A stretch of DNA of 64,000 nt from NCBI GenBank assembly GCA_018806915.1, contig JAGKQI010000085.1, positions 806,001 to 870,000 of the forward strand, given 5' to 3'. This DNA is from Phytophthora colocasiae. Lineage: Eukaryota; Oomycota; Peronosporomycetes; Peronosporales; Peronosporaceae. Positions 41,135 through 46,047 of the stretch are shown piece by piece. Under the pieces are notes generated by a model. The model was not told the origin of the DNA. It saw only the letters and a program-made list of their open reading frames with translations, and ran no database searches. Both the position numbers and the translations under genes were made by a program. Every line of letters begins with the position of its first letter. Position 1 is the first letter of the stretch.

Positions 41135-42147
41135 ACCGCCCCTCCTGGTGGATGCCTCATGGCGTTCACGTAGAACGGTGTATGCCCTGTCCAGGCACCG
41201 AGTTGTTGATGGCAAACTCTGCCATCGGCAAGCACTCGCTCCAATGCGGGAACGAGTGAGCGTAGCTCTTCAGCGTGTCACCCAGTACGCGGTTGACACG
41301 TTCGGTTTGTCCGTCCGTCTGCGGATGATCCGCAGTCGACATTGATAATTGTGAACCAAGAAGTGTAAACACTTCTTGCCAGAACCGCGCTGTGAAGCGT
41401 GGATCACGGTCCGACATAAAGTCGAGCGGCATGCCATGGTGTTTGAACACCATGTCAACAAACAGTCGCGCAGTCTGCGCGGCTGTAACAGTAGCCGGGA
41501 CGGCAGCAAGATGAACCATCGTGCTGAATCTGTCCACAAACAACGATGCCCGTCCTCCGCTTGCTGTCAGGCGGAAGACCGAAGACAAAGTCCATGGACA
41601 TGGACTGCCAACACTCCGACGGAGTCGGTAGTGATTGAAGAGGAGCCTGCGAGAACTGCGCAGGCTTCACGCGTTGACAAACCTCGCAAGCACGTACGTA
41701 CTTGCGCACCCACTTGTACTGGTGGTGCCAGTAGAAGTCACGCGTGAGAAGAGTGTATGTCTTCTCACGACCCGGATGCCCTGCCGTGGGGGCATCGTGA
41801 TACTCGAGCATGATTCTCAACCGGAGGTCATGATCATTCGGAACGACAATGCGATCCGCATTGTCGTCTACTGCACTGTACAACAGTAGGCCTTCGTGTA
41901 CACGATAGCGGTGTACACGAGCTCGAAGATAAGGGGTTAGCTTCCGACGTGCCACGTCGGAAGGTGCTGCGAGGAACTCCAGCAGCCCCTTCGCGTCTGC
42001 ATCCCTTGCATACGCGTTCTTCACGTCGTCAATCAACGTTGACGACGGCACACTTGTCCTCACGACGCCAACTGCGTTGGCGTCGACCGTCTCCGCATTG
42101 TCAGGTCGACGCGATAACGCGTCGGCCACTACATTGAGTCTTCCGGG
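41135..42147 (-). pseudogene. Element C integrase (truncated)
   Basis: From the RNase H tether (VVADALSRRPD) the frame runs through a linker to the zinc domain (HDAPTAGHPGREKTYTLL, CEVCQRVKP) and into the core (MSMDFVFGLPPDSKRRTG). A frameshift near 41560 moves the frame, and the core continues as LFVDRFSTMVHLAAVP, SDRDPRFTARFW and PQTDGQTERVNRVL, so the D, D and E residues are all visible. It stops at TPFYVNAMRHP, about 15-20 bp before the LTR at 41134. The last few codons (PGGAV) no longer match F, so the exact junction may lie slightly inside. Confidence 0.8.
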
Positions 42148-42315
42148 TTAGTACTCTACCCGGAAGTTGTCCTCCGCGAAGAAGGACAACCATCTCGCCA
42201 TACGCTGCGAGATGTGCGGCGACTTAATCGCCGTACGCAATGATGCGTGGTCTGTATACACCACAAACGGTCTACTCCCAAGTAGATACACTCGGAACTT
42301 TGCGAGTGCATACTT
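42148..42315 (-). pseudogene. Element C RNase H, C-terminal half
   Basis: MKYALAKFRVYLLGSRPFV and YTDHASLRTAIKSPHISQ match the back half of the F RNase H (MKYALVKFRVHLLGSKPFV). The frame ends EDNFRVEY then TAA (42148-42150), where F has VKYKPG, so a lysine codon has become a stop. The front half lies at 42884 and beyond, across the insertion. Confidence 0.8.
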
Positions 42316-42883
42316 CATGTCACGATCCATCAGTGCGGAACTTTCTCCAAGCTGTGTATCATGGCCAGGCCTATCAAACATTCTGATAGACGGTTTTCAG
42401 AGCATAGTGTAGCTGCAACTCTTTGCCAGTTGCCCGGTTTTCAGAGTCTCTGGTGCCCCGTCGCACAGTCTGATTCTCTCAGACTCAGAAATTTTAATTT
42501 GACTCGCCCAACGGGCGATCATTTTCCAATCTCCGTCCTTTCGCTCATGACTGAGGAAACCAGCGCTTCTCTGAGCTCAAACGCCTCAGCCAGTGGGGTG
42601 GCAGGCGACGCCACAGGCACTTGTCCTGCTTCGGCAACTGCCAGTGTGGTGCAGGGTGGAGATGTTGGTTCAGCCACATCGCCAGGCGGCAGCTCTAGCG
42701 CCCCAGCCCGTGCGTCCGAGCCTAAGCATTCACAAGTCGATGATCTGGGTGAGAATCTCCCCGGTGGCACTATTGACTCGGCTGGCTCCGGTGATCTTTC
42801 GCCAACGGCTGTTTCACATGGGGGTTCCAGTTCTGAATTCTCTGAGGGAACTCCTGGTGTTTCAGACCGCGAGCTTTCGGGCA
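42316..42883 (+). mobile_element. 568-bp insertion carrying a gag-like start, possibly of the element A family
   Basis: The insertion separates KELLA from MKYAL in the RNase H of element C. It contains TTTTCAGAGTCTCTGG and related words typical of element A. On the plus strand it then has an ATG at about 42548 opening a Ser/Ala/Gly-rich frame (MTEETSASLSSNASASG, VQGGDVGSATSPGGSSS) that reads to the insertion's end. It looks like the 5' leader and gag N-terminus of another retroelement. The exact ends are uncertain by about 10 bp, and no target duplication could be fixed. Unlike the surrounding DNA it has no perfect inverted repeats with arms of 9 bp or more. Confidence 0.55.
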
Positions 42884-43761
42884 AGGAGCTCCTTGTCATG
42901 TACGGGATAGTTACGCTCAGCTGGCTTCAGCTGACGCGATTGATAGTAGACTACACGATCACGCCCTTCGTGATCGTGTTGCATCAATGTACATCCGATT
43001 GCAAAGTCGGATGCATCGCACATTATGTGGAATGGACGATCTTGGTCCGCCACGGCCAAGATCGGCGCTTCAGTCAAGCCCTGCTTGACTGCACCGAATG
43101 CATCCTCGCACTCGGTCGTCCAAATCCACTCAGCTTCTTTCTTAAGAAGCTGTGACAACGGGTGAATCTTGCCCGCGTAGTTCTCCACGTACTTGCACAA
43201 GTACGTGGCAAGCCCAAGGTACTGCCTCAGTTCCTTCACATTGGATGGCGTGGGCCATTCATTGATCACTCTGACCTTCTCTTGGTCAGGGCGCACGCCG
43301 TCTTTCCCCACGAGACACCCCAGCACGGGTATCTCGCTCGCCCCGAAGATACACTTCTTCAGGTTCGCATAGAGCTCATGTTCCCTCATAAGCTCTAGCA
43401 GCTTCCGGAGATGCACCTTGTGCATCTCAATGTCCGTCTTCCCGTTCACAGCCCGGCTGTGGACGAACACGTCGTCGAAGTAGCTCGGTGCGAAGTCGCG
43501 CACCGAGCGCAATAGATGTGTCACGCATCTATTGAACGTCGCAGGGGCGTTCTTAAGCCCCTGTGGCATGACGAGCCACTCCCAAAGCATACCGCTTGGA
43601 GTGCTTACCGCTGTGAGAGGGATGTCCCTCGCACGCATGAGGATTTGGTAGAATCCATCACGCAGATCTAGAGCACTGAAGATAGTGCTCAAGGCCGTCG
43701 AATCGATGATAACATCTTTTCGCGGTATCGGCGTCTGCGCCGGTATCGTCGCATCGTTCAA
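42884..43761 (-). pseudogene. Element C reverse transcriptase and front half of RNase H
   Basis: RT blocks read AQTPIPRKDVII, FSALDLRDGFYQILM, MPQGLKNAPATFNRC and SYFDDVFVHSRA, so the catalytic aspartates are kept. Thumb and connection follow (KCIFGASEIPVLGCLVG, LRQYLGLATYLCKYVENYA), then the RNase H start IMCDASDFAIGCTLMQHD and YPVHDKELLA, where the insertion begins. The frame upstream of 43761 is shifted relative to the preceding segment, costing part of the fingers domain. Confidence 0.85.
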
Positions 43762-44573: not shown

Positions 44574-44586
44574 CCGCCAGCACCTC

Positions 44587-45761
44587 CTACCGCGCAGTCG
44601 GTTCCCTGAACCGCTGCGCCTCCATCCGCTCCCGGAGCGGATGAAGCAACCGCACGTCGACTCCGGGAGTCGACGTGCTCTCGCTAGCTTCCTGCGCTAG
44701 CGAGTGTTCGCTTGTACACATATCGTCAGCTCCCAGAGCTGACGCACGATCGCTAGTTCCCGGAACTAGCAGCGAACATTCGCCTGTACACGCATCATCA
44801 GCTCCCGGAGCTGATGCACGATCGCTAGTTCCCAGAACTAGCAGCGACGCGCCAGTGGCGTCAGCTCTGGGAGCTGACGCACGCCTTTCGGTTCCCCGAA
44901 TATTATTTACTTCGTCAACTCCCAGAGTCGACACGACGTCGTCGGCGCGACCCTTGGAGGCTTGAAGTACCTCCAAGGATACCGGTAATACCGGTATATT
45001 ACCTTCTCTCCGGTGAATCGCATTCACCTGACCATCACTCATGTGACAAACATCATTCAGATGTTTACGCGTCAGGTGATTCACATTCACCTGACCATCA
45101 CTCATGTGACCGCGACCCTTCGGCTCAGATTTCTGAGTCGACACACATTTTCTCACAACGACTCTCGGAGTCGTTGATGGCCGCCGGCGGCGATCGGAGA
45201 CAGCGGCGGCCGCTGCTGCCTCAACTGGGGATCCACATGCACCGGCGGGTGCATATGCAGCACTGACAGGGCCATCGCTCTCTGTCGCGCATGTGTTGTT
45301 GAAGCGTACGAGCGTACGCTTCTCCCAGTTGATCACCGGGTCATGCCGTGCAAGCCACGGCATGCCTAATACCAAGTCGAACTTATTGTCTAGATCCAAG
45401 ACGATAAGATCTTCTACAAACGTCCTTCGTTTGTAAGAGAAGCGCACACGGACTACGCGCCTCTCAGTCCCCACGGTGGCACCTGTTGCCAACCGCACCT
45501 CCAACACGCCGCGAGGCGTGTCGGCCTCTTCGAAGTCAAGCCTTCGAAGACTTCCCTGTCGAACAAAGTTGTTCGACGCGCCCGAGTCCACTAGGGCACG
45601 AAGAGAGTTCGCTCTCTTCGACATCACGTTCAGTATGACAAGGTTTGGCTTGTCATCTTGCAGTTTTCAGCGAGAAACCTTCTCGCTGGGGGCAGCAGTC
45701 CTCATCGTCGCGTGTTCAAGCTCGACACGCGAGACTGCATCACCAGTAGGACGCCCCGCGC
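44587..45761 (-). pseudogene. Element C aspartic protease and repeat-rich hinge
   Basis: LRALVDSGASNNFVRQGSL is the protease active site and LVLGMPWLARHDPVINW the second conserved block, as in F (LIDSGASGNYVR, LILGMAWLERHEPWIDW). The C-terminal hinge has tandem protein repeats of about 24 residues (LLVLGTSDRASAPGADDAC, LLVPGTSDRASALGADDMC). At DNA level these are about 71-bp units between 44706 and 44875, each holding two palindromes. The ATG at 45627 is inside the open frame. The true pol start is probably upstream near the gag end. Confidence 0.75.
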
Positions 45762-46047
45762 CTACTGGTCCTTGGCGTTTTTTGAACGCACGCCCGCTGT
45801 GCACTCGCGTGCGTAGTGACCGATGTTACTACACTTGTAACATCGAACCTTGCCGTATCTACGCTGCTGTTGACCAGCTGTCGTAGCACTCGAGAGGTCC
45901 ATAGGTTCCGGACCTCTTGTCTTCACAACAGGACGCGCCGGCTTCGGCGCGTTCGCATGGAGTTTAGCTTGACGCCGGCTAAACTCCTCTTGCATTGCAA
46001 GGCTGATCGCCTCCTCGAGAGTATTCGGATACTCTCGGAAGAGATAT
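45762..46047 (-). pseudogene. Element C gag, C-terminal zinc knuckle only
   Basis: EEFSRRQAKLHANAPKPAR and GPEPMDLSSA lead into one zinc knuckle, CYKCSNIGHYARECT (C-x2-C-x4-H-x4-C), then a stop. GPEPMDLS is also found just before the knuckle in F gag. The capsid region is missing because the sequence is cut at 46048 by the LTR fragment of F. Confidence 0.8.

Follow-up and report, generated by a model that had tools for sequence, protein, structure and literature searches.

Two kinds of pervasive structure are known from RNA viruses. In genome-scale ordered RNA structure (GORS), the whole coding genome folds more stably than shuffled sequences and G.U pairs are tolerated, and dispersed packaging signals are stem-loops placed throughout the coding sequence that share a loop motif recognised by the capsid protein. 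Inverted repeats and template switching are also the subject of work on quasipalindrome template-switch mutation, in the available part of PMC7202029. Here we analysed a stretch of 64,000 nucleotides from Phytophthora colocasiae (contig JAGKQI010000085.1, positions 806,001 to 870,000; hereafter the window), which contains a fragment of a retrotransposon, element C, that is saturated with short perfect inverted repeats. By its predicted domains, C is a Ty3/gypsy retrotransposon of the chromovirus type, and we compared it with its other genomic copies, with related and unrelated elements, and with protein relatives in other species.

The original prediction, made from the sequence alone, had listed 33 perfect inverted repeats between positions 41640 and 46040 of the window. 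All 33 were exact at the spans given, and five were 1 bp longer than listed. Requiring arms of at least 9 bp and loops of at most 14 nt, we counted 69 such repeats in the window, 47 of them within the C fragment. A complete copy of C (L010) carries 95 in 8,273 bp, compared to a mean of 0.33 and a maximum of 2 in 40 dinucleotide shuffles. Synonymous codon shuffles (200 for each region) did not reproduce the repeats: 49 were observed in the first part of L010 pol (shuffles: mean 0.69, maximum 3), 16 in the second part (mean 0.27, maximum 2), and 3 in gag (mean 0.045, maximum 1). The excess is not peculiar to one copy, since all 20 of the other C loci analysed, out of 39 and each taken as a 10-kb stretch, have 40 to 105 repeats, some of these loci including pieces of a second C copy. 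Outside the C matches, the same loci and the window together contain 61 repeats with arms of at least 8 bp in 108 kb, or 0.56 per kb.

Two parts of the original prediction need correction. The repeats are not limited to coding DNA or to the interval first described; the window copy is truncated, and in complete copies they extend from one long terminal repeat (LTR) to the other, through the LTRs, gag, pol, and an antisense gene. Nor is there support for their being made largely by synonymous choice, as all three codon registers are in use (17, 23, and 28) and the stem codons are also more conserved at the amino-acid level among close relatives. In L010, the counts for arms of 6, 7, 8, 9, 10, 11, 12, and 13 bp were 68, 33, 33, 46, 29, 15, 4, and 1, a distribution that peaks at 9 instead of declining geometrically. 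Loops measured 0 to 11 nt in 93 of the 95 repeats, and 15 further repeats had loops of 15 to 399 nt. Direct repeats of comparable size and spacing numbered 5 in the same copy.

Complete copies of C are about 8.3 kb long with LTRs of about 460 bp (four copies measured). A 901-bp piece of the element had at least 39 further matches in the 92.5-Mb genome, among 40 candidates scored, and ten C loci gave two LTR matches. Paired LTRs of 330 to 465 bp with 99.2% to 100% identity were found in L009, L010, L011, L013, L017, L019, L021, and L024; the pair of L023 is 95.8% identical, and that of L028 is 98.4% identical with its two LTRs only about 3.2 kb apart. One locus sought as a diverged C subfamily, L029, proved to be about 97% identical to L009. 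Two overlapping open reading frames (ORFs) in L010 encode RVP_2, RVT_1, and RT_RNaseH, followed by Integrase_H2C2, rve, SH3_Tf2-1, and Chromo. The element thus has the protease, reverse transcriptase (RT), RNase H, integrase order, a chromodomain near the end, and LTRs at both ends, as chromoviruses do, and its nearest protein matches are labelled Phytophthora (best 120 of 1,690).

The stems are nearly all Watson-Crick, and G.U pairs are neither enriched nor spared in C or in a related family, element D. Among placements of eight pairs in C, which are nested and not independent, 212 were perfect compared to 0.7 in shuffles, while those with one mismatch were G.T in 24 (3.0 expected), A.C in 68 (2.8), and other in 62 (11.0). 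At ten or more pairs with one mismatch, four C copies gave 0 G.T, 2 to 3 A.C, and 2 to 4 other. Five-pair stems of D with loops of 3 to 5 nt were perfect in 180 cases compared to 23.8 in shuffles, and the counts with one interior mismatch were G.T 38 versus 37.8, A.C 44 versus 31.4, and other 141 versus 139.7. In three more related families, E, J, and K, the mismatch classes are in small excess, with G.T level with or slightly above the others: in E at six pairs, G.T 29 versus 15.2, A.C 26 versus 15.3, and other 99 versus 66.0; in K at eight pairs, G.T 10 versus 1.6, A.C 11 versus 2.5, and other 16 versus 9.6. The folding energy of the sense strand of C, which the original prediction had proposed comparing with shuffles, was low (mean z −3.9 over 68 segments, 88% of them under −2), compared to −1.2 for D and −0.5 for a control stretch. 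The antisense strand of C folds at least as well (z −4.5).

We then defined the C hairpins in one of five copies and scored variation in the remaining ones. Variants common to at least two copies occurred at 2.15% of stem sites, 7.0% of loop sites, and 4.1% of the rest, so that stems have about half the shared variants of their surroundings and loops 1.7 times as many; at four-fold degenerate sites the counts were 8 of 227 in stems, 4 of 49 in loops, and 49 of 806 elsewhere. Stem diversity was about half that of the rest at codon positions 1 and 2, at four-fold sites, and at other third positions alike. Variation follows a steric rule expected of folded hairpins: the innermost pair was variable at 14.9% of sites when the nominal loop was 0 to 2 nt and at 3.4% when it was 4 nt or more, and the outermost pair was variable at 1.0% of sites compared to 7.2% for the first base outside. 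Loops showed 0.33 singletons per four-fold site versus 0.11 elsewhere, every substitution class was raised in them, and small gaps were 3.2 times as frequent as in the rest, although the gaps may partly reflect alignment. The raised substitutions and gaps indicate that the hairpins probably form during replication. Stems of D, scored in five copies, likewise vary less (0.0284 versus 0.0444 overall; 0.061 versus 0.094 at third positions). Single changes in these stems formed G.T in 127 cells, A.C in 112, and other mismatches in 39, with 4 compensated doubles.

The comparison with other elements, which the original prediction had also suggested, gave a divided result: the four related families are enriched at stem lengths other than that of C, and a copia-like and a different Ty3/gypsy element in the window are not. 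Stem lengths were taken from arm-by-loop tables compared with shuffles. D is enriched in stems of 4 to 6 bp, mainly 5 to 6, with loops mainly of 3 to 5 nt; arm-5 repeats numbered 196 compared to 62 expected, 3-nt loops being by far the commonest, and D pol has 59 hairpins compared to 15.0 in 200 synonymous shuffles (maximum 26). Family E has stems of 6 to 9 bp (arm-6 68 versus 13 expected, with the excess reaching arm 9), J of 5 to 9, and K of 7 to 9, and C peaks at 9 to 10 with a smaller excess at 6 to 8. D has 57 genome matches, the window's own included, and the E fragment has at least 39 other places among 40 candidates scored; four more copies of D and three loci of E show the pattern as well. 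Loops in D are closed by a C-G pair in 71 cases and by a G-C pair in 26, which suggests real folding. The control Ty3/gypsy element (window 26000-34500) gave 36 arm-5 repeats versus 53.8 in shuffles and 0.47 versus 0.57 per kb with arms of at least 7 bp. The controls were not uniformly flat: the stretch 4000-12500 gave 1.06 versus 0.51 per kb for arms of at least 7 bp. Other window stretches showed little or no excess, the largest being in 60200-62850 (arm-5 38 versus 21.7). Hairpin places coincide weakly between families (z −2.0 to +2.9, with 11 of 14 comparisons above 0), the highest overlaps being E with D (+2.9), J with K (+2.5), and E with the first part of C pol (+2.3). These results lead us to infer that this Ty3/gypsy clade is characterised by hairpin saturation, with a stem length specific to each family and with gains mostly at different places.

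DNA of C relatives was sought in collections of viral contigs and genome contigs and none was found, and the tests across species therefore use proteins. Of the 120 proteins, 57 were at least 76% identical to C over the region compared (56 without P0034), 53 were below 72%, and the 10 intermediate ones were dropped. In the first part of pol, codons in stems were more conserved than the rest (0.848 versus 0.739), compared to equal values in the outgroup (0.588 and 0.585), and none of 1,052 circular shifts matched this effect. We also asked whether a relative's amino acids are still compatible with a Watson-Crick hairpin of nine pairs at the corresponding position. Changed hairpins were still encodable in 521 of 1,040 cases compared to a null of 219.6, and, when both arms carried amino-acid changes, in 208 of 477 compared to 47.6; the outgroup gave 174 of 1,797 compared to 131.2. 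Ten Phytophthora species, represented by one protein each, could encode 226 of 316 C hairpins, unchanged ones included and often with both arms changed. Changed hairpins exceeded the null in all ten, from P. rubi (11 of 30; null 5.9) to P. cactorum (15 of 19; null 5.0), this null being pooled over the substitutions of all 120 proteins and laxer than the group-specific one of the 208 of 477 test. Further proteins gave 12 of 34 (null 4.5) for a metagenome and 3 of 42 (null 3.7) for Globisporangium. Judged from these proteins, the C hairpins appear to predate the split of the Phytophthora species and to have been largely maintained since, with matched changes in both arms.

Complete copies of C also have an antisense ORF of up to 515 amino acids near the 3′ end (L010 7854-9398 and L009 7866-9413, both on the minus strand). 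Where it does not coincide with pol, the fraction of sites with shared variants is 3.4%, 3.7%, and 8.8% for codon positions 1, 2, and 3. This constraint indicates that the ORF is probably a real gene and that C is probably transcribed on both strands. A comparison of the C and D antisense ORFs gave no clear homology (E-value 0.039), though their places are similar, and in the 3′ part of one E copy, where the longest reverse-strand ORFs have 176, 148, and 124 amino acids, no antisense gene was demonstrable.

Near-exclusive Watson-Crick pairing and the behaviour of a folded hairpin make two-strand folding the simplest reading, since only Watson-Crick pairs fold in both strands, a G.U in one being an A.C mismatch in the other. 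Our best reading, at a probability of roughly 0.47, is that both strands have long been under selection to fold locally, with a presumed mechanism in which selection would act on the hairpins that either strand forms when single-stranded. The likeliest use would be that sense and antisense strands, whether those of the cDNA or the genomic RNA and the antisense-gene transcripts, are kept locally folded and would anneal neither to each other nor to small RNAs, and could so escape silencing; the stem length of each family might be dictated by the proteins with which it replicates or is packaged. Such escape from annealing and silencing is plausible. In P. infestans, according to the available part of PMC3804510, 84% of feature-assignable small-RNA alignments overlap retrotransposons and the yield of small RNA per megabase is highest for inverted and tandem repeats, which could count against silencing escape if such short stems fed Dicer. 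A broader version is put forward slightly more tentatively: a constraint across the clade that would draw the whole sequence into Watson-Crick hairpins able to fold in either polarity. Their positions would mostly differ between families, the machinery of each family would determine its stem length, and the constraint would override codon choice and even amino acids and be as old as the genus.

Several observations weigh against two-strand selection. The contrast between stems and loops could be partly mutational, and the frequency spectrum gives no clear distinction between selection and stem protection. Stems are richer in GC than the rest in D (0.645 versus 0.572) and K (0.739 versus 0.599), as simple stability selection would give, and a weak tolerance of G.U is possible in E and K. 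J and K are each represented by one 5-kb stretch. The antisense gene is limited to the 3′ part of C. Across species, the second part of pol gave a weaker effect (residual 0.069, matched by 2.3% of 725 shifts), and loop codons of the first part were conserved like stems (0.842; 45 codons), those of the second part being less conserved (0.700; 19 codons). Proteins from Peronospora (9 of 42; null 4.0) and from the European Nucleotide Archive (ENA; 10 of 42; null 4.2) exceeded the null as well, which leaves the limit of the clade blurred, and the species names are source labels on proteins that are related and not independent of one another.

Three other processes fit less well than two-strand folding. 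A neutral mutation ratchet, in which unpaired bases mutate more in replication and sequences drift into protected hairpins without benefit, would account for the excess of every substitution class and of small gaps in loops. The depletion of shared variants in C stems, which is similar across codon positions and mismatch types (G.T 8 versus 22.3 expected; A.C 15 versus 28.9; other 13 versus 26.5), is what it would produce, and a simulation with strong protection (R = 10, stems of at least 5) resembled the arm histogram of E. We nevertheless regard the ratchet as unlikely. At ratios roughly estimated from C (about 2.2 rest to stem and 4.3 loop to stem), simulations from a random start, without coding constraint and with 25 attempted mutations per site, equilibrium being unchecked, gave at most 2 arms of 9 bp or more per 5 kb, compared to 67 in 6.1 kb of C. 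The ratchet also leaves unexplained why families in one host differ in stem length and why stems stop near 10 to 11 bp.

Selection on the structure of the sense genomic RNA only, through GORS-like order or dispersed packaging signals, seems just as improbable. The original prediction had named RNA stem-loop selection as a possible cause, and the general idea is partly supported by stems that vary less, loops that are free, the steric rule, and relatives whose proteins can still encode hairpins with both arms changed. The low sense folding energy of C compared to D and the control, the conserved stems, and the modest G.T excess in E and K would all suit a sense-only target. However, a target consisting of sense RNA alone is hard to reconcile with C and D, where G.U pairs have no advantage. 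The antisense strand folds better than the sense strand, and the hypervariable loops make recognition of a loop motif doubtful.

Templated fold-back copying (quasipalindrome correction), in which RT or repair uses one arm as the template for the other, so making and restoring perfect repeats, and the stem length is the copying tract of each family's enzyme, was the second cause originally suggested, and we find it more doubtful still. The exactness of the repeats speaks for it, perfect ones being many and those with one mismatch few, as do the use of all codon registers, the sharp stem lengths of the families, and an arm composition close to background in C and E. Inverted loops, a sign of strand switching, occur at two hairpins, one in L012, L017, and L021 (L009-element 7548-7552) and one in the window copy (2392-2394). 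Six copies share three matched pair changes at 2518-2538, and six an apparent short matched change at 645-650. The set at 2518-2538, however, matches a neighbouring hairpin. About half of the stem mutations removed by such copying should appear as doubles, but among C hairpins perfect in most copies we found only 2 compensated doubles, neither of which was shared, beside 178 kinds of single change, of which 35 were shared. With L009 as reference, cells with a single change numbered 281, those with a compensated double 2, and those with an uncompensated double 6. Shared alternative pair states were Watson-Crick in 21 of 66, a count that includes overlapping registers and hairpins perfect in a minority of copies. 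In the test used for multi-base clusters among copies, 36 of 46 had no nearby reverse complement of the new sequence. The shuffles, the 20 other C loci, the three E loci, and the four further D copies refute an origin in chance or composition, as well as an artefact of assembly or of a single copy, and we give this explanation practically no weight.

The features of the window are collected in Table 1. By eye, the two units of the 72-bp tandem repeat in the protease-RT linker (44699-44842) differ by matched hairpin-arm changes. D adjoins C directly, its LTR-like pieces lying at 46048-46273 and 53306-53579 and being followed by the C LTR fragment at 53580-53856; an inverted D LTR-like piece begins at 53861, and the interval 46048-54086 consists of nested or rearranged insertions. 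Nine short inverted repeats with arms of 7 to 11 bp lie at 1-1000, and 5050-12490 contains ORFs of Helitron type (Helitron_like_N, PIF1 helicase) and, after them, one with ankyrin repeats.

Table 1. Features of elements C, D, and E and of the control elements, in window coordinates.
Feature	Position	Strand	Evidence and remarks
C fragment	41148..46048	-	Both ends truncated; 47 perfect hairpins with arms of at least 9 bp; blastn matches of other copies stop at 41148 and 46048
Foreign insert in window copy of C	42323..42879	.	557 bp; matches of other copies skip from 42322 to 42880; 0 such hairpins inside
C integrase pieces (Integrase_H2C2, rve), two frames	41169..42147	-	Pfam; rve under its curated cut-off
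C reverse transcriptase and RNase H piece	42865..43785	-	Pfam RVT_1 4e-24, RT_RNaseH_2 3e-29
C protease (RVP_2) and linker	44590..45666	-	Pfam
Hairpin run with similar core, including 72-bp tandem unit	about 44623-44880		In C protease/linker region
ORF with C zinc knuckle (gag end)	45765..46118	-	Pfam zf-CCHC; homology to other copies ends at 46048
C LTR fragment, hairpin-rich	53580..53856	-	97.5% to L009 LTR; hairpins at 53626, 53663, 53789, 53817
Element D, related family	46049..53579	+	Pfam; arm-by-loop table; LTR-like ends inferred from matches
D coding part	about 46265-51860	+	
D long reverse-strand ORF	51375-53078	-	
Family E LTR and gag fragment, hairpin-rich, arms 7-9	54235..55120	-	Part repeated at 12604-12898
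Control: different Ty3/gypsy element	26055..34512	-	Pfam; without hairpin excess
Control: copia-like element	55258..57762	-	Named by eye from ORF translations; without hairpin excess

A constraint by which self-complementarity of the strand, independent of reading register, shapes whole genes of a mobile element would be a selective force or mutational mechanism that we did not find described. Should folding hinder silencing, it would be one means by which retrotransposons remain active where the host defends itself with small RNAs. The conservation of proteins in these elements would also partly mirror nucleic-acid structure, which is a warning for its interpretation. Sister families with different stem lengths in one genome, together with relatives in many Phytophthora species, make the question directly testable.

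In its domain order, chromodomain, LTRs, and protein relatives, C is like other oomycete Ty3/gypsy elements of the chromovirus type; for hairpin saturation in such elements, no report was found in the open-access full-text literature, which lacks most subscription papers. Quasipalindrome template-switch mutation, as far as the available part of PMC7202029 describes it, is similar in its inverted repeats and template switching and has a counterpart in the loop inversions of C, but the C copies lack the compensated doubles expected from it. Dispersed packaging signals resemble C in the many stem-loops spread over the coding sequence, but the loops of C are hypervariable with no shared motif seen, and the triloops of D are diverse. 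As in GORS, the sense folding energy of C lies below that of shuffles along the whole element; the C hairpins differ in being short, isolated, and nearly all Watson-Crick, in folding on both strands, and in a stem length that changes between related families, and G.U pairs are neither enriched nor spared in C and D, a weak tolerance being possible in E and K. Because no report was found and because GORS, packaging signals, and quasipalindrome correction each fail on one tested feature, we rate the pattern as categorically new, its nearest kind being the pervasive genome structure of RNA viruses, which it resembles in its low folding energy.

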